A stretch of DNA of 64,000 nucleotides, taken from Siphonodentalium dalli (lineage: Eukaryota; Mollusca; Scaphopoda; Gadilida; Siphonodentaliidae). Location: assembly GCA_032622095.1 (NCBI GenBank), contig CP136067.1, positions 79,510,705 through 79,574,704 on the forward strand, in the 5' to 3' direction. The position numbers and the translations under genes were made by a program. Under the pieces are notes generated by a model. The model made no database searches. It was given only the letters and a program-made list of their open reading frames with translations, and had not been told where the DNA came from. Below, one piece after another: positions 6,476-26,017 of this stretch. Positions within the stretch are counted from its first letter, which is position 1. Every line of letters starts with the position of its first letter.

Positions 6476-7296
6476 GTACCCATGTATATCTCCTCGGCAA
6501 GGGGAACAACGAGACAGTGACCATGTAGACTAGCAGCGCCAACATCGTTGGTTTGATGTTAGGCCCTATATCACCCTGAGGTAACCTCATATCACAATCA
6601 GCCTGACGACGAAGGCTGATATGAGGCTACTGAGGACTGAAATCAGGCCTATAATATCAAACCAACCAAGTAATACCCTACATGTATCTATTAATTACGG
6701 TAGTTCGCCTCTTAGTAACAGTGTAATATTGACACCTTTTTCTAATGAGTGACATCACAAAAAATTGGTATCTATGCCTATTCTAATAGTGAAATAGAAT
6801 TACACCATGTCAAAGCCATACCGTGTATTACTCAGATCGTGATGTCATAAAATCATACATGTATTACTCTTAATTAGTGATGTCGTAAAATTATATTACT
6901 CGATTTAGGGCAAATTGAAGTGATATTCAGCTAAGTACAAATGGAGTTTGATAACAAGCCATATCGTGCAAAAATGTCATATCTAATTAATAATTTTCGA
7001 ACAAATTTTGGACCGATATACATTTACCCTGTAGCCATCTGTAGGAAACTTCCTTCCAAAGGGGTGCTGTCGGAACATACATGTATCAAGGTGGACCCCC
7101 TCCCCAATGGGAGACTCGTATCCATGCCCATTGGAAATAAATGATAATGTGCAATGGATGAATAGGTTGCTGGCATTTCATACCATGGAAGTTTTTTCGC
7201 ACCAGGGTTCTGGACATTTCATACCAGTTCCTGTATCATTTCGACAATTCGTACCTTTGAGTATACCGGTATTATTTTTAAAAAAAATGACATTAA

Positions 7297-7720: not shown

Positions 7721-8289
7721 TCTTTACCTTTGTCGCGACAATTTCAATTGGTTCATTTTGTTTCGAAAAAAAGAAAAAGAAATATGTTAACATGTAAATG
7801 TTGGGCTGTCATCATCACGAACGTTAAATCATGATCATGTTCACTCTCATTAAGTTAACACGATTAATATAATTTTTCACATGTACGAATGACCATTCAT
7901 CATTTTTGGGAATCAATGAAACATACCAATATATGGTGTGAAATGACCAAAAACATGGTACGAAACAATTAAATGTGTCATTCAAATCAAGGGTACAAAC
8001 TGGCCATAGTAGGACAAGTCGTTTGAGCCATCCAACAGACCTGGGTGAATCGCTTGGGCGATCGGTTTTCCACAGTAAGGATGCATCTTGGAAGAGGGGA
8101 GTCAATCTAATTAACTGTTTAATATCTATAACCAATACTTAAAAACAATAACAATTTATTCTGATTTCTTTTGAAACACACAGAATAATTATTTACTGAG
8201 AATATTCAATATAAACATATACAAATTCTCAAACAAAGGGAATTTCAATGTTCAAGAAATTTCGAGTCCCCTCTTACTTATGGCCGGGA

Positions 8290-8475
8290 GGCCCTTTTCA
8301 CATTTATTATTTATTTGCGCTCAAGCACAAATATTAAGCTTAAACATAAATCATTTGGGCTTAAGCGAATGTCATTTGCGCTTGAGCACAAATATGTGTC
8401 TATTAATTTGTTTGCGCTTAAGTGAAAATCATATGCGCTTAAGTGTAAATGCTTTGCGCTTAAGCGCAAATACCT
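8290..8475 (+). repeat. Cluster of GCGCTTAAGCGCAAAT palindromic motifs, left
   Basis: At least seven variants of (T)TTGCGCTTAAGCGCAAAT, a self-complementary motif centred on CTTAAG, occur over about 180 bp. A second cluster is at 9394-9450, beyond a MITE. The motif may be a subterminal repeat of a larger element. Confidence 0.65.
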
Positions 8476-8570
8476 AGCACTCCTTTACTTCCCTCTGATT
8501 GTGAATGATGGAGTCCATCTCATAGTATATTATTATGGGCCCATAGTAGTAGCCCATACAGACTCGAAAG

Positions 8571-8960
8571 TTGAAAAGTCAAAAGCATCTCTGTCTCTGG
8601 TGTCCCAAAAATTGGTGCCTCATTCCCAAAGCTCTAGTATATTTTATTAAAGGGACATCTCCTGCACAAATATATACCATTTCCATGGTCATAGAAGGGG
8701 AATTAGGGGTTACTGGTGGCTTGCTTCCCTCATGGTGTACATGTACTTATTGAATAGAAATAGGGGAAAAACATATTTTCATATTATCAGCATCCCTGTC
8801 CCTAAGAATTTGTGCATCCATCCCAGAGATCTATTACATTTTTATAAAAGAGACATATCCTGTACAGATATATACCATTTCCATGGTCATAAAAGGTACT
8901 GGTATCTAGGGATCACTGGGGATTGCTTCCCTTGTATGATGGGCCTACAGGTATATAGAC
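8571..8960 (+). repeat. Imperfect direct duplication of ~230 bp
   Basis: ATATATACCATTTCCATGGTCATA occurs (as ATATATACCATTTCC plus ATGGTCATA) near 8667 and 8870, within units that share CATC(T/C)CTGTC(T/C)C at their start and GGCTTGCTTCCCT/GGATTGCTTCCCT at their end. No coding content is recognised. Confidence 0.6.
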
Positions 8961-8970
8961 TTGAGTGCAA

Positions 8971-9398
8971 GTCTGCAAATAGCGTGTCTGTCATTTGTAG
9001 AATGAGGTCCCCAGAGGGTGAATTTAGTGACGCTACACCGCATAGTGGGCTAGCATCACTAAATTTACCCTCTGGTGGCCTCATTCTGCTTAGGGCCCTC
9101 AACTGCTATGGCAGTCCTAGGATAAGATTGAAGTTCCCCAGTTGAAGTTAGTGATGTTCACCCATTTGGAGCCTCGATTATGGATTTTATCTTCTGCAAA
9201 TTAGGGGATATAGAAACTTCCCAGATGGGAAAACGTAACTAAAAACAATGTTAATTTGATACCATAGTTACTTCCCAGAAAATGAGGCCTAAGCAGAATG
9301 AGGTCCCCAGAGTGTGAATTTAGCTATGCAGGGTAGCATCACTAAATTCACCCTCTGTGGACCTCATTCTGCAAATGACAGACACGCTATTTGCAGGC
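8971..9398. mobile_element. MITE family 'GCCTGCAAATAG', copy 1
   Basis: Inverted ends: GTCTGCAAATAGCGTGTCTG at the left and its complement ending TTTGCAGGC at the right, followed inward by AGAATGAGGTCCCCAGAGGG on both sides. A second copy at 58367-58796 has the same ends and the same inner motif. Length is about 430 bp with no coding capacity. Confidence 0.8.
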
Positions 9399-9455
9399 TT
9401 AAGCGCAAATGATTTGTGATTAAACGTAAAATATTTGCACTTAAGCGCAAAAATT
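9394..9455 (+). repeat. CTTAAGCGCAAA motif cluster, right
   Basis: Two good copies (GGCTTAAGCGCAAAT, CACTTAAGCGCAAA) and one degenerate copy lie immediately outside the MITE, mirroring the cluster at 8290-8475. Confidence 0.55.
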
Positions 9456-18000: not shown

Positions 18001-19053
18001 ACGCAATTTTGACTGCGTTCTGGGCCAGAAAGAATTCCCGATAATGAAAAATAATAGATTTCTAAAATCGATATCTAACAAATCTGAGCTTTGATGGGTG
18101 ACTTCCTCGACTCGAATCAAATATTTTTGACCCCCGAAGCCATTGAAATAGTAATTGGGAGGAGTTTTTATCGGATTGAGTACATTTAACTATACTAGTC
18201 AGAATAAGACTGCCAGATATATATGCCTTTATATAACCTGCAGTCAGAAAAATTCAGAATAAGAATAATATATCAAATTTATGGAGGCACGGGCTGAATG
18301 TTCATTGCTTCAAACGTGCTTTCTTCAGTAGCGTGAACAAATTCTCATTTCTTATATCGAAATGACTATGTAATGATCAGAATGGCTTAATGCGCGGTCT
18401 CTCAACTCATATCAAGCGCGAAAATTGGTCGAACCAGTGTCAATCTCGTCTAGCCAAGACCGCGATGAAGAATACTATGCGTGCCTTTAACTATAGTTAG
18501 AATAAGAATGATACGTGTTCATTTAACCATATGCAATATATGTATAAGCATACTATGTTTGCATTTGGCCATATAGCCAGAATACGAATGCTATGTGTGC
18601 CTTTAATTATAGTCAGAATAAGAAGGTTGTGTGTATATTGCATATAGTAAGAACATTATGTGTGACTTGATATAAATAATAAATTATATATGTACCGTCT
18701 GCCAGTATTTGTGGTATGCCTTTCCCTTCCTTGTTCGTATTTCTGTATCGTCCAGAGAAAACATCCGCTTGCTTTACAAGGGATTCGTGCAAGGCGTCGT
18801 ATCCGTTAATGACGACGGTGAGTCGATTCCCAAGATAGATAGAAAAGACATCTCCGTAGTCCGATCGCAATTTCCGGAAGTTCTCCAGTGGGTTGCCCAC
18901 AAGATGGAGAGCGTTTCCTATTACTGGCAGTGGTACTGGTCCCGGAGGTATTCCATCTGGGCGCCGCGTTTGCATTATCACCCATAGCAGCAGGAAAAAC
19001 GTACCCCCGATGGCTAAAGTCACAAAATTATTCAAGAAATATTCCACCAGCAT
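11847..19053 (-). CDS. CYP2-like cytochrome P450 gene, four coding exons
   Basis: Seen: coding exons 19053-18696, 15545-15024, 12826-12389 and 12031-11847 on the minus strand, each intron GT...AG and each junction in phase 1. They sum to 1503 nt, i.e. 500 residues plus TGA, the normal P450 size. The ATG at 19053 is chosen because it directly precedes a hydrophobic anchor (VTLAIGGTFFLLLWV) and a proline-rich hinge (GIPPGPVPLPVIGN). Later landmarks are WKKNRR (helix C), AGTETTS (helix I oxygen-binding site), EILR (ExxR), FNHKRF, and FIPFGTG/KRACVGES, with the heme-ligand cysteine in exon 4. Known: such proteins are ER-anchored monooxygenases using NADPH-P450 reductase. Inferred: CYP2 clan, substrate unknown. 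No inactivating change is seen. Introns of 3150, 2196 and 357 nt carry repeats. Confidence 0.93.
12389..12826 (-). CDS. P450 exon 3: helix I to heme-loop start
   Basis: 438 nt. It starts DHELGRIILDLFLAGTETTS, contains EILRHGD with the ExxR pair and DPFTFNHKRF, and ends FIPFGTG at donor CAG|GTAAGT. The acceptor (CGCAG) lies about 28 bp from a dispersed repeat whose TTTTCTTCT contributes to the pyrimidine tract. Confidence 0.92.
12854..13505. repeat. Dispersed repeat family, copy B (in P450 intron 2)
   Basis: 12854-13125 matches 487-760 and 13211-13285 matches 1708-1760, so this copy shows the uninterrupted order of the two halves. Its edge lies 28 bp from the exon 3 acceptor. Confidence 0.7.
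13506..14137. other. P450 intron 2, unannotated part
   Basis: AT-rich intron sequence with no recognisable gene or repeat. Confidence 0.5.
14142..14611. mobile_element. TTAA MITE, AGGTACTCA family (P450 intron 2)
   Basis: 470 bp from AGGTACTCAATCCGAT to ATTGAGTACCT, flanked on both sides by TTAA (14138-14141 and 14612-14615). Internal landmarks are TTTGATTCGAGTCGAGGAA and CTTGATTTTAGAGTTATCC. Non-coding. Confidence 0.88.
14725..14755 (+). repeat. C/G homopolymer-rich tract
   Basis: A CCCCCCGGGGCC block is followed by a run of about 15 C. The complementary strand is G-quadruplex-prone. It lies about 270 bp from P450 exon 2, in intron 2. Confidence 0.7.
15024..15545 (-). CDS. P450 exon 2: helix C to before helix I
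   Basis: 522 nt, from acceptor TTGCAG| to donor CCCAG|GTAAGA. It begins GIIRSDAGPTWKKNRRF and continues TLQTLRDFGMGK, the classic CYP2 exon-3-like segment. The WKxxRR arginines contact a heme propionate in known structures. Confidence 0.92.
15770..16480 (-). mobile_element. Pearl/Helentron-like tandem element, minus orientation (P450 intron 1)
   Basis: About three diverged units carry GAAGTTTTGTGAC-ATCGGATG and CATGGCC/CAAGAT-type blocks. These are reverse complements of blocks in the plus-oriented elements at 33.3-34.5 kb and 54.5-57.5 kb (ATCCGATCAT...AAACTTCATATGG and CATCTTGGATTT). Includes a run of 11 G at 16080. Confidence 0.65.
16605..17275 (+). repeat. Tandem array (~125-130 bp units) with paired TCAAGGTCA sites
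   Basis: Five diverged units share GGATTTCGATGAAACTTGGTA and end in a facing pair TGACCTTGA...TCAAGGTCA. The sense sites are at 16731, 16862, 16987, 17117 and 17241. TCAAGGTCA matches the extended half-site bound by ERR/NR5A-type nuclear receptors. The array is in P450 intron 1. Whether it regulates anything is unknown. Confidence 0.8.
17276..17700 (+). repeat. Scattered short 'AGTCAGAATAAGAATAC' repeats
   Basis: A(T/C)AGTCAGAATAAGA(A/G)TAC-like units recur at about 17293, 17407, 17446 and 17659, and again at 18200-18630 and 16510. They flank the MITE at 17709-18185, so the array was probably split by it. Confidence 0.65.
17709..18185. mobile_element. TTAA MITE, AGGTACT(A) family (P450 intron 1)
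   Basis: 477 bp flanked by TTAA (17705-17708 and 18186-18189). Ends are AGGTACTAAATCCGA and GATTGAGTACAT, one substitution each from consensus. The interior contains GAGGGTCCCCATCTCAACAG. Confidence 0.87.
18200..18640 (+). repeat. Continuation of AGTCAGAATAAG repeats
   Basis: Diverged copies at 18200, 18243, 18497, 18580 and 18612 continue the array seen before the MITE. Nothing coding between them. Confidence 0.55.
18696..19053 (-). CDS. P450 exon 1: signal anchor, hinge, start of substrate-recognition region
   Basis: 358 nt, ends in phase 1 at donor G|GTACAT. It encodes about 119 residues: MLVEYF, a single membrane helix, the PPGP hinge and residues up to QILADG. An upstream in-frame ATG at 19179 would add 42 residues ahead of the anchor, which is atypical for the family, so 19053 is preferred. 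Confidence 0.9.
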
Positions 19054-19199
19054 AATGATGAGTGTTTCTGCGCAGTGTGTGGCTTCACCTATCCGCTCCC
19101 AAATATAGTACCCAAACCAATGGCGAAGGTATGTATATTCGCGTGTATTTATGTTCCCGGCTATATATGAACGTCCCATATATTACCCATTCAATGTGA

Positions 19200-19208: not shown

Positions 19209-19354
19209 TTAACAAAACAACTTGTCAACTGAACGTGAAACCCAGCCCAATCATTCTGTCAGGCATTAATCGGTGCAGCGCGCACTACAGATCAAGTGGA
19301 ATGACAACGCACACATGTCAGTGTATGGGGCGCCGTTCTTCTATTTATTACATA

Positions 19355-19790
19355 TTTAGTGATATCACTAATTCATTTTATGATATCACTAATTCGATTA
19401 TGTGATATCATTATTTCATTTTGTGATATCACAAATTATTTTGTGATATCACTAATTATTTTGTGATATCACTAAATATTTTAAGATATCACAAATTCGA
19501 ATTCTTGATATCACAAATTGATATTATGATATCATAAAATCGAATAGGTGATATCACAAAATAGTAGCATCTAGTGATATCACTAATTCTATTTTGTGAT
19601 ATCAATAAATAGGAAATGGCATAGCTTGCCGCGCCATTCTACTATTTATGTAACATTTTGTGATATCATAAAATCGAATTATTGATATCACTAAATGCTT
19701 ACTATTTTGTGATATCACATATTCATTTTGTGATTTCACAAATTACCAACATTTTGTGATATCAATAATTCGAATTAGTGATTTCACAAA
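19355..19790. repeat. Left array of GTGATATCAC palindromes
   Basis: Sixteen GATATCA cores, mostly full 10-bp GTGATATCAC or one-base variants, plus two GTGATTTCAC variants. Centre-to-centre spacing is mainly 20-22 bp, with interrupted stretches. Spacers are AT-rich with AATTC or AAATCG. Confidence 0.9.
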
Positions 19791-20527
19791 ATGAGTTAAT
19801 TTTAGAACAACTTAATGATTTCTCCTATTCCACTCAAATATGGCGGAAAACAAGATATTTTATAGCACGCGTGAGGCAGACTATTTTAAATGGAAAGATG
19901 TGTCTAGAGTATGAGGATGCGAATAACAATCGAATTTTATTGGATCTGAGACAGGCAAAGCGATCATTAGTGACCATTCGCGATATAATGGAAGATACGA
20001 ACTGCAACGGGATAGAATCCACGCTGTCAACATTGGCGGACAAAATAGTAGAACAGAATACAGCAGCATCGAGCCCACATAACTCATTCGCTGCGGAGAG
20101 ATATCTTAGTATCTTAGACCATGACAATGATGTTCATAAATATGCACTACAAACAGTTTATTTGCCAGTTATTAATCAAAATTTGAAATCTTTCAAGGAA
20201 GCCTGGAATTCACACAAATTATCAACTGAACATCAACAAACACCCAAACAGTTGTGGCTAAATGGAGTTTTGGATCATATAAATTCCAGATCGATGCCAA
20301 AAACAAATATGTTTCAAACTTCATTTCCTGAGCATTTTATTGCTCAGATTAGACAATATGGTATAAATCCAGAGTCTTTTGAAGACCAGCAACAAGATGT
20401 CGGTCCAGTTGTCATCTCTTTACCACAAGAAACTGAGATGCTGTCTCGGGTCACCAATACAGACTACGCCACAGAAGAGAAGTTTGTCAAATGTTTGGAG
20501 TATCTTACAGAAATTGAAGTCATTTAA
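19778..20527 (+). CDS. Integrase/transposase C-terminal-like protein, catalytic core not seen
   Basis: A 249-codon open frame ends in TAA at 20525-20527. The first in-frame ATG is 19898 (209 residues); the codon at 19778 is GTG, so either the protein starts at 19898 or this is a 3' exon. Residues about 105-190 contain AERYLSILDHDN, then VHKYALQTVYLPVINQNLK, FKEAWNSHKLSTE and TPKQLWLNGV. This pattern resembles the region just after the catalytic domain in animal rve/DDE integrase-like proteins (compare 'FLPRIN..L..F...WN.H.L.TE....P.QLW'), a comparison made from memory. The DDE triad region itself is absent. Intact length amid decayed neighbours may indicate recent activity or constraint. Flanked on both sides by palindrome arrays. 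Confidence 0.6.
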   Translation: MISQNELILEQLNDFSYSTQIWRKTRYFIARVRQTILNGKMCLEYEDANNNRILLDLRQAKRSLVTIRDIMEDTNCNGIESTLSTLADKIVEQNTAASSPHNSFAAERYLSILDHDNDVHKYALQTVYLPVINQNLKSFKEAWNSHKLSTEHQQTPKQLWLNGVLDHINSRSMPKTNMFQTSFPEHFIAQIRQYGINPESFEDQQQDVGPVVISLPQETEMLSRVTNTDYATEEKFVKCLEYLTEIEVI

Positions 20528-20569
20528 TATAATTGTGTGAATTTTCTCCCCGATTTCAGAAAACCGTGG

Positions 20570-21035
20570 AATTTGTGATATCATAAAATCGAATATGTGA
20601 TATCATAAAATAGTTACTATTTTGTGATATCATAAAATCATTTTGTGATATCACTAATTCGAATTTGTGATATCACTAAATGATTTTATGATATCACAAA
20701 ATCGAATATGTGATATCACAAAATAGTAGCATTTAGTGATATCACAAAATCAAATTTGTGATATCATAAATTCATTTACACGATTTAGTGATATCACAAA
20801 ATATTTCATGATATCACAAAATAATATTAGTGATTTAACTAAATAGTCATGTTGTCAGAATTAGTGATATCACAAAATGAATATGTGATATCAGAAAATC
20901 GAATTTGTGATATCACTAATTCATTTTATGATATCACAAAATCGATTTTGTGATATCACAAAATAATAAGCATTTAGTGATATCACAAAATCGATTTTGT
21001 GATATCAGAAAATGAATTAGTGATATCACTAAATA
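20570..21035. repeat. Right array of GTGATATCAC palindromes
   Basis: Nineteen GATATCA cores, most at 20-23 bp spacing, with flanks alternating between AAAATCGAAT- and CTAATTC-type spacers. It mirrors the left array in inverted orientation at the outer end. Confidence 0.9.
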
Positions 21036-21300
21036 GGTAATAAATAGAAGAACGGTGCCCCATAGCATTGAAGACCATGAGATAACAAATTGAGACACCC
21101 CCCCCCCCCCCATTTTTGATAGAGCATAACACTCCGCATCTTTTAAAACTTGTTTGCTGATGAGAAATGTCGCTTTCGAATTTTATGACAATTTTGGTGG
21201 GGTATATCTATAAGGGTAAGTAATTATATACCCTAATACTGGGCATAGTTTTACACAGAACGTTATCATGGGTGTCATCATATATAGCGGATATGAAATG

Positions 21301-23372: not shown

Positions 23373-24214
23373 CGTGACAAGAGGGCTATTTTATTGGGAC
23401 ATATAGTTGACATTGTGGATTGTCATACTGCATGCAGACAATATATTTGATCAGTACGATTTTCCCCATATTTGGATTGAAGATTGATTGAATTTTTTAT
23501 TCCTCCAATGAGTGAAGATATTATATACAACATATAGTAAATACGCTCGATTGTATGTATGTAGACCTACCGATTTCGGTCGCGCTAAGTAAAAAAGTTG
23601 TATATTTTCAGCAATATGATTAATGCCTGGAAAGGTACTCCACAGAACCTAAATATTGGTACTCCACGTACAGAACCTAAATATATATAGGTACTCCAGA
23701 GAACCTAAATATAGGTACTCCAGAATACCTAAATAATTGTTACCCCAGAGCACCTGGGCAGGTACTCTAGAGTACCAACACTCAATGCCAGCTAACTGGG
23801 ACCTTGGCTAACTGGGATCTTCGGCTAACTGGAACCTTGGCTAACTGGGACCTTGACCAACTGGGACCTTGGCTAACTGGGACCTTTGGCTAACTGGGAC
23901 CTTGGTTATATATATTATATGTATTAGTGGAATTTAGAACATTAAATTCATTTTTATTGTTTGCTTTGTTTTGTTATTGCTTTATCCTTCAAACTGTGTT
24001 AGATTTGTTTTAACCTGACTTAATAAAAAAAAATTAACAAAATTATTTTGTCAATCTTACCACTATAAATCTGAAGGTGACAGCTATTTTTATTTTTATC
24101 CACTGATATATTTCTATGAATATTTATTGTTTGATGATCTAGTCAATAAAGTCAATAAAGTTATGGCTATTCTTAAATTGGCATCCACAGTTAAGATATA
24201 CCGGTAATAATTAA

Positions 24215-24573
24215 AGGTACTCAGTCCGATTAGACGCTCCTAAATTACTATTTCTTTGGCTTTGGGGGTAGAAAATATTTGATTCGAGTCGAGGAACCCA
24301 CACATCAAAGCTCAGAGTGATTATTATTATTGTTGTTAACAGTATCCACTTGATTTTAGAGTTATCCTACTTACACCCGCAATTTGTCCGTTTTGAGCAC
24401 GTGGTTCTGCCAACTTGTGGCCCACATCTCCGAAAATTAACAGATTTCAAATATCGATATCTAATCACTCTGAGCTTTGATGGGTGGGTTCCGGCCTCGA
24501 CTCGAATAAAATATTTTTTACCCCAAAGCCAAAGAAATAGTAATTTAGGAGCGTCTAATCGGATTGAGTACCT
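24215..24573. mobile_element. TTAA MITE, AGGTACTCA family, short variant
   Basis: 359 bp flanked by TTAA (24211-24214 and 24574-24577), with ends AGGTACTCAGTCCGATTAG and CTAATCGGATTGAGTACCT. It is shorter internally than other copies. Confidence 0.87.
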
Positions 24574-24805
24574 TTAAAGTGATTGTTAATCAGGACATTC
24601 ACAGTGAAGGTACGTGTAAGTTTGTTTTGAAAGCGATTAGTGTGTGATAACTCTGTTGTTTTAATCAGTTGTTCCTTTTGATCTTGTGATCTAATCATTG
24701 GCAGCTTACTTGTGTTCACTTGTAACAACTGACCATCAGCAGTGAGTTTGTTTAAAAGTTTACCCAAAAGACAACATTTCATCTGTTTTAACTGTCATGA
24801 CTTAA

Positions 24806-25290
24806 AGGTACTCAATCCGAACAGAGGGTCCCCATCTCAACAGATTCCAACAACAACAATCCGATCAGAGGGTCCTATATTACTATTTCTTTGGCTTTGG
24901 GGGTAAACAATATTTGATTCGAGTCGAGGAATATACCCATCAAACAAAGCTCAGAGTTATTAGATATTGATTTTTGAAATTTGTTATTTACTCGAGATGA
25001 GTACTAATAATTGCCTTCAACTGCCGTAATCTGCTCGGGATGTGTACAACAAAATCTATTCAAACAGACAAGGATGGATAACTCTAAAATCAAGTGGTAA
25101 TAATAACTCAATTTTGACTGAGTTCTGGGCCAGAAAGTATTCCCGATAATGAAAAATAATAGATTTCTAAAATCGATATCTAACAAATCTGAGCTTTGAT
25201 GGGTGACTTCCTCGACTCGAATCAAATATTTTTGACCCCCGAAGCCATTGAAATAGTAATTGAGAGGAGTTTTTATCGGATTGAGTACCT
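24806..25290. mobile_element. TTAA MITE, AGGTACTCA family
   Basis: 485 bp flanked by TTAA (24802-24805 and 25291-25294). The right TTAA is shared with the next element, which starts at 25295. Confidence 0.88.
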
Positions 25291-25294
25291 TTAA

Positions 25295-25826
25295 AGATAC
25301 GGGCGGCGTTTGGCGGTGGGTATATATATATGCTGTTAAAATATTCACCTCCGTCAAAAACCTCCATAAACAGAAATAATAGTAAAATAAAGACAGAATT
25401 TGTACTTAAACCAATCAGAAATATGGCACAAACAGTAGGTTATTGTCAAATGTTTTTCCTTTGTTATGTAAACAAAAGCAAAAAACGGTACCGAACCTGG
25501 CTTTTGTTTAGGTCCGGATATGGTAAACATAAAGAGCGATATTGTTTACTGTTTCCTGATATGGAAGTAATAAAGAGCGCTTATATCATTTGTGTGTGAT
25601 TAACCAATAGAATTGCGCTGTGTTATGTAAACAGAAGCAAACTTATGTAACACGAACAGGCTCTTGTTTACGTACACCAACGTACATCTTGATGACAATA
25701 TACTATTTACGCGCTGATTATGTTTGGCATATGAACAAAACTATATAGGCCTACGTTTAATATTCCTTCTATTGATGGCGATTTGAACAAAATTGAATAT
25801 TTCTGCAACGAACATCGCCCGTGCCT
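25295..25826. mobile_element. TTAA MITE, AGATACGGG family, copy 1
   Basis: 532 bp from AGATACGGGCGGCGTTTG to CGAACATCGCCCGTGCCT, flanked by TTAA at 25291-25294 and 25827-25830. The 5' half (ACCTCCATAAACAGAAA, TTGTTATGTAAACA) matches the copy at 50539-51501. Confidence 0.8.
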
Positions 25827-26017
25827 TTAAAAAACTTGATTAAAAAAAAATTGTTAATAATAAATATGATGATCCCAGTTAGCCAAGGTCCCAGTTAGCC
25901 AAGGTCCCAGTTAGCTGGCTACCCCAACACTTAGGTACTCCACTGGGATAAAGCTCAGTACCTACGTAGGTAGTCCAGAGTACAGGTTCGTGTCTATTGT
26001 GTTAACTCGTTTAGGAC

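Follow-up and report, generated by a model that had tools for sequence, protein, structure and literature searches.

A repeatedly copied transposon with palindrome-array ends in Siphonodentalium dalli, assigned to IS3EU as a non-autonomous member

The window, a stretch of 64,000 nucleotides of the Siphonodentalium dalli genome, contains a disabled, repeatedly copied transposon of 1741 bp (19324..21064, forward strand), which by its ends, its target site duplication (TSD) and its protein tail we assign to IS3EU as a non-autonomous member. In our preferred reading, to which we give a probability of about two in three, this non-autonomous IS3EU element would be moved by a transposase supplied in trans, its two arrays of palindromes are predicted sites of a dimeric DNA-binding domain, and its open reading frame (ORF) would be a deletion product. 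Directly observed were the ends, the 6-bp TSDs, a family of copies, arrays retained where the coding part is absent, and a sister element that has nearly the same terminal repeat and is built on another palindrome. IS3EU itself is an already known, though little-studied, superfamily of cut-and-paste DNA transposons.

The termini of the element read TATGGGG..CCCCATA and are shared with copies that carry a 6-bp TSD. An earlier note on this DNA had described inverted ends of about 54 bp, and indeed 54 of the first 56 positions match, with about 92% identity over 90 bp. The parts of the terminal inverted repeats (TIRs) outside the arrays lie at 19324..19353 (forward strand), where the repeat runs on into the array, and at 21035..21064 (reverse strand). 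Among 1097 TAYGG/CCRTA pairs spaced 0.2-6 kb apart in the window, the pair 19324-21064 was the best, with an inverted match of 19/20. The note had also read the TA on both flanks as a target duplication. Since the inverted repeat starts at TA, both TAs are the element's own termini, and the duplication found outside them is 6 bp long. In the window copy, the forward-strand flanks TCAGTG (19318..19323) and GCATTG (21065..21070) agree at four of six positions and probably represent a decayed TSD, the length of which is taken from the family.

We searched the host's own assembly (2.23 Gb, 9 contigs), in which the element family proved to be abundant. A 25-bp TIR pattern with at most one mismatch occurred 282 times in forward and 307 times in reverse orientation, as compared with 0 + 0 for the reversed control. 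We then examined 40 loci, comprising the window copy and 39 fetched copies, and at the threshold used 31 of them kept both ends. The 6-bp duplication was exact in 19 of the 31 two-ended copies, against 0.012 expected by chance, and agreed at five or more of the six positions in 23. The remaining eight, including the window copy (4/6), have one to four matching flank bases, and in some of them a one- or two-base shift brings the flanks into agreement, which would fit trimming at one end. The copies thus upheld a transposon family bounded by such ends and replaced the TA duplication of the earlier note by the 6-bp TSD. The family start string was absent from 21 of the 31 two-ended copies, the right arrays of which are 96.0-98.9% identical to that of the window over the aligned part, suggesting recent movement of the copies. 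Thirteen two-ended copies (L030, L032, L033, L034, L057, L059-L065 and L068) possess an additional terminal repeat in their interior, at 475-486 bp from one of the outer ends; they look as if a mini-element of about 476 bp had joined half an element and the two had since been mobile as a single unit. The examined copies and the long TIR pairs read included no autonomous element with these ends. Six such pairs, 3-21 kb apart, were present among the matches listed, and the two that we read both lacked a DDE match; one (L077) has mismatched flanks and a long minus-strand frame, and the other (L078) has an exact TSD.

IS3EU has been described by TA..TA termini and a 6-bp TSD (Kojima and Bao 2023, PMC10045372, in its accessible text), and its fungal members end in TAYGG..CCRTA (accessible part of PMC12730594). 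The window copy and other copies show TATGG..CCATA termini together with the 6-bp TSD and the TIRs of IS3EU/GingerRoot, and the protein carries a PF24764-type integrase-like tail. While the earlier note knew of no named superfamily with such an architecture, the termini and TSD place the element in IS3EU as characterized in the available portions of these two papers. Unlike the published elements, the present one has no catalytic core, and the accessible parts of the descriptions make no mention of dense palindrome arrays. Our literature search, which covered little of the subscription literature, found no report linking subterminal arrays with IS3EU, and on GATATCA and transposons nothing comparable was among the matches listed. 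No DDD/E transposase is encoded by the element, in which only the part of the protein following the catalytic Glu is present; the element is thus at most a non-autonomous IS3EU member. From the termini and the TSD, taken with the published features, PF24764 proteins would correspond to IS3EU transposases in the Repbase sense.

We analyzed the palindrome arrays of the window copy. The earlier count of 35 GATATCA sites, 16 on the left and 19 on the right, was reproduced, whereas 300 dinucleotide shuffles of the element gave a mean of 0.71 and a maximum of 3. Alignment of the 35 sites on their centres revealed a dyad of 20 bp that reads A W T T W G T G A T / A T C A C W A A W T; its 7-bp core is fixed by the site selection, whereas the outermost positions were left free and yet show A at -10 and T at +10 in all 35 window sites. 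The left array (19354..19792, forward strand) includes 18 sites of the dyad AWTTWGTGATATCACWAAWT scoring at least 17/20, 16 of them with exact GATATCA, and the right array (20570..21034, forward strand) includes 20, with 19 exact. The dyad scan thus detected 38 sites of at least 17/20 inside the element; outside it, none reached 18 and two scored 17. The linkers between the dyads are mostly 0, 1 or 2 bp, so that the 20-bp sites abut, sometimes 6 or 7 bp, and in a few cases longer. The centre spacing of 20-22 bp reported for most sites was likewise recovered, in 24 of 33 intervals. Five intervals measure 26-27 bp, or about 2.5 turns, by which the next site is rotated by half a helix turn. The vector strength at 10.5 bp was 0.44 in the left and 0.27 in the right array, and 92% and 99% of 500 simulated nulls equalled or exceeded the best value near this period. 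These results showed that the local two-turn packing of the sites is real, and that a single helical face along the whole array, as had been claimed, is not supported. The left array is interrupted by a 44-bp gap (19611..19654, forward strand) that contains an internal copy of the left end, with 17 of 19 aligned bases matching and a score reached by none of 2000 shuffles. A right-end/left-end junction inside the left array was rejected as a candidate, as only the left-end part was significant; the right-end part was reached by 237 and 435 of 2000 shuffles in two forms of the test.

The arrays persist in copies that no longer carry the family start string. Nineteen of the 21 two-ended copies of this type keep 33-42 array sites, and the other two, with 476 bp between the recognised ends, keep 18. 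Similarly, L050 retains both arrays, with 29 GATATCA and an exact TSD, and its coding region differs in sequence after the ninth codon. Furthermore, we found a sister element, L040, with an exact TSD (CCTATC), the TIR of which is identical to that of the present element at 23 of the first 24 bases. Its two arrays are built from the palindrome GAGATATCTC with 26 GATATC centres, which give 24 within-array intervals, 12 of them measuring 21-22 bp and five 41-43 bp; its N-terminal ORF is related, with 31 of 79 residues identical. The two elements therefore have a common end sequence and a different subterminal palindrome. This retention, together with the sister's own palindrome, makes the arrays look functional. 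The arrays might alternatively be a selfish minisatellite, grown inside the ends by slippage and by conversion at the palindromes, and without a role in transposition. Such growth would account for the near-identity of left- and right-array blocks (127 bp, 88%), for a higher-order unit of 43 bp visible in the arrays, and for the further dyad arrays elsewhere in the genome, yet it fits poorly with a 20-bp dyad that is preserved in spite of varying unit lengths (linkers of 0, 1, 2, 6 and 7 bp, besides a few longer ones). The substitution rates among copies are also in its favour: 224/6908 (3.24%) in the cores and 80/2245 (3.56%) in the linkers (p 0.46) are alike, so that recent constraint on the palindrome cores is not visible. 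The invariance of positions -10 and +10, the near-full arrays of the 19 start-string-less copies and L050, and the separate palindrome array of a sister with nearly the same TIR all argue against it, and we regard this explanation as rather unlikely.

We next consider the residual ORF. The 249-codon frame (19778..20527, forward strand), described as intact in the earlier note, is indeed open, although its first 25 or so codons are not those of the family protein, which starts in other copies at the ATG at 19840..19842 (forward strand); after this family start, the window copy is out of frame. In three of the 13 copies examined, L017, L018 and L021, no interruption occurs between the family ATG and the stop codon of the family, the frames encoding 231, 231 and 226 aa, respectively. 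The tail of the ORF matched PF24764 (integrase core) at 8e-20, with the post-catalytic segment at 20084..20293 (forward strand) aligning ORF residues 103-172 with positions 123-192 of the 194-position profile. The suggestion of an integrase-tail-like protein without a DDE core thus agrees with what was matched by Pfam and BLAST. When the ORF itself was the query, protein searches yielded no match, and a solved-structure search yielded weak unrelated matches only. An animal relative served as bait, and we take its catalytic D, D and E motifs to precede position 123 of the PF24764 profile. The bait matched 4438 database proteins; among the best 120 of these, 65 had all three catalytic motifs as written, and among the 40 with listed spacings these were 56 and 34 or 36. 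The ORF aligns with the C-terminal part of such longer HTH + DDE relatives. One of them, P0109 of Desmophyllum pertusum, is 33% identical to it, and an AlphaFold2 model of this relative (mean pLDDT 77) places a run of helices at 58-91 in the position of the HTH, and strands and helices at 177-263 in that of the DDE core. In the alignment to the full-length relatives, the ORF lacks both the HTH region and the catalytic core.

The N-terminal part was compared with IS3EU N-termini. For that of the window frame the result was negative: it ranked 74th of 502 by HMM, and 95 of 200 shuffles reached its score, while in this test all 60 shuffles stayed below the score for 20 of the 25 positive controls. 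The true family N-terminus was borderline (9th of 501; 16 of 300 shuffles), and 11 of 300 shuffles reached the score of the sister's. Since this similarity is no better than borderline, the joining of an IS3EU N-terminus to the tail is a putative one. When copies were compared with the family majority, 35.5 synonymous differences in 1891 sites and 101.5 non-synonymous differences in 7010 sites gave a pooled dN/dS of 0.77, not distinguishable from neutral (one-sided p 0.09); the dN/dS comparison among copies that the earlier note had suggested thus gave a value not clearly below neutrality. Older comparisons showed an excess at third codon positions: the N-terminus of the sister differed by 34/25/45 at the three codon positions over 79 codons, and the tail of the relative L073 by 7/5/13 over 26 codons and by 6/1/8 over 27. 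The simplest history suggested by these sequences would be that an old functional IS3EU gene suffered an internal deletion, which joined an N-terminal part to the tail, and that the copies then drifted largely neutrally. The residual ORF is most likely a deletion product that travels along.

A different role for the same ORF, with its N-terminal region and post-catalytic tail, would be that of a working regulator or accessory protein that binds the array or poisons transposase multimers. Precedents exist in KP, a repressor of the P element cited as dimerising and binding P DNA (accessible text of PMC7776569), and in TNPA, which acts on the subterminal repeats of CACTA elements (PMC2613891, likewise in part), and the three open frames among 13 copies, as well as the third-position excess in both ORF halves in the deep comparisons, are consistent with such a function. 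As in the case of KP, a small non-autonomous copy encodes a truncated transposase, but KP binds P DNA, as stated in the accessible text of PMC7776569, whereas the present ORF has no HTH region in the alignment. KP-like interference of the residual protein with the transposase might occur, and we rate it lower, as the HTH is missing. The dN/dS of 0.77, the lack of the HTH and DDE regions of the relatives, the loss of the family start string from 21 of the 31 two-ended copies, and the frame shift at the start of the window copy also speak against a regulator, which we consider unlikely.

A cytochrome P450 exon with the N-terminal part lies at 18613-19179 of the window on the minus strand, and the left end of the element is about 0.27 kb upstream of the probable P450 start codon, as counted from the reading frame, which puts the arrays near the P450 promoter. 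From this position the sites could act on the promoter, as would suit a palindrome bound by a host transcription or chromatin factor for expressing, silencing or placing the element; the palindrome differs, though, between two elements with nearly the same TIR, which an element-encoded partner fits better, and a host factor thus appears quite improbable. Finally, a new superfamily with TA target duplications, to which the TA adjoining both ends as first delimited had pointed, is ruled out by the exact 6-bp duplications outside the ends in 19 of the 31 copies, and the TA lies within the inverted repeat and not in a duplication as in Tc1/mariner or other TA-duplicating superfamilies.

Other IS3EU-like genes are present in the genome. 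Among the relatives found to retain the exon with the catalytic Glu (VHNQRIERLW), L073 is the closest; there, the exon is followed by a tail 50-56% identical to that of the family; L073 itself is decayed, and a dyad array of another sequence lies no more than 0.5 kb from its exon. Four further loci, L069-L072, contain IS3EU-like transposase genes with introns, about 96-99% identical over several kb between chromosomes, and this family was apparently active recently. We looked for the ends of the L069-L072 family and did not find them. No comparable array was seen beside these genes, an array of another palindrome being about 3.5 kb away in L072, and the arrays are thus not a general rule of IS3EU. 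Dyad arrays of three kinds were detected in the window and none in five shuffled windows, and eight genomic loci of 9.9 kb contained three. Since dyad arrays are not rare in the genome, an array near an IS3EU gene can be a coincidence and is no proof of an IS3EU function.

Several such stretches were noted within the window. A second element-like stretch (8279-9451) begins with the left end TATGGCCGGGAGG, and its 20-bp palindrome ATTTGCGCTTAAGCGCAAAT forms a left array at 8312-8472 and, at 9397-9451, a shorter right one; the ATTTGCGCTTAAGCGCAAAT array also occurs on another chromosome (L072, 8925-9047). At 23634-25990, dyads of the GGTACTCCAGAGAACC type are spaced about 24 bp apart on the left, with traces on the right, and inner 16-bp tandem repeats (GCTAACTGGGACCTTG) lie in inverted orientation on both sides. 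At 6740-6900, a sister family has possibly left a remnant in the form of three or four decayed sites (GTGACATCAC, GTGATGTCAT) akin to the GATATCA dyad. Outside the host, a genome-contig search yielded, from 56 pattern stretches, three contigs of sponge-symbiont MAGs that encode relatives. In one of them (L006), probably of sponge origin, a TGTATACA dyad recurs in three 21-bp repeats at 2214-2276, just upstream of the likely start codon of a PF24764-type gene; of the other two, L004 has no such repeats, and in L005 a simple TAGCTAGCTA repeat occurs in pairs only. Among the viral contigs searched, no relative was confirmed, and three contigs had one chance palindrome each.

Dense subterminal sites are known from other superfamilies. 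The two ends of the hAT element Hermes carry 17 and 14 short subterminal sites, and a quasi-palindromic pair is bound cooperatively by BED domains of the transposase, which provides a tested precedent for transposase DNA-binding domains at many such sites (PMC10368747, accessible text). The Hermes sites, unlike the present ones, are short motifs of the AAGT type, in an unrelated superfamily with another DNA-binding fold. In CACTA/En-Spm, as described in the available part of PMC2613891, the subterminal motif varies between families while the terminal repeats stay similar, and TNPA is a separate DNA-binding protein; the present element and its sister L040 likewise share the end sequence and differ in the subterminal repeat. 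CACTA/En-Spm differs in its CACTA termini and 3-bp duplication. It is not known to have an integrase relative.

In the preferred reading of a non-autonomous IS3EU element, a full-length transposase from an autonomous relative would act in trans and cut at the TATGG..CCATA ends, and the excised element would insert with a 6-bp stagger. A dimeric DNA-binding domain, either the HTH region of the transposase or a partner, would bind each 20-bp palindrome, and the subterminal arrays may thereby concentrate the transposase and pair both ends. What speaks against this reading is that the loci read yielded no autonomous copy, that palindrome cores and linkers have changed about equally often, that eight of the 31 two-ended copies show fewer than five matching flank bases, and that another IS3EU-like family has no comparable array beside its genes, dyad arrays of other sequences being present elsewhere in the genome. 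The cooperative binding of the array by an element-encoded protein, as the earlier note proposed, would be plausible; the present ORF lacks the HTH region of its full-length relatives. More tentatively, family-specific arrays of 20-bp operators might form a modular recognition system among the IS3EU elements of this genome, although we hold this to be somewhat doubtful. Here, nearly one TIR combined with different palindromes (GTGATATCAC vs GAGATATCTC) would mean that the array diverges in step with the DNA-binding domain that recognises it and that the two together determine which non-autonomous copies are moved, and truncated proteins would be possible dominant regulators. In hAT and CACTA elements, the importance of subterminal arrays is established, and the present element with about 38 near-identical dyads, together with a sister that has nearly the same TIR and another dyad, constitutes a natural pair for asking whether it is the array, the TIR or the two combined that determine the transposase by which a copy is moved.
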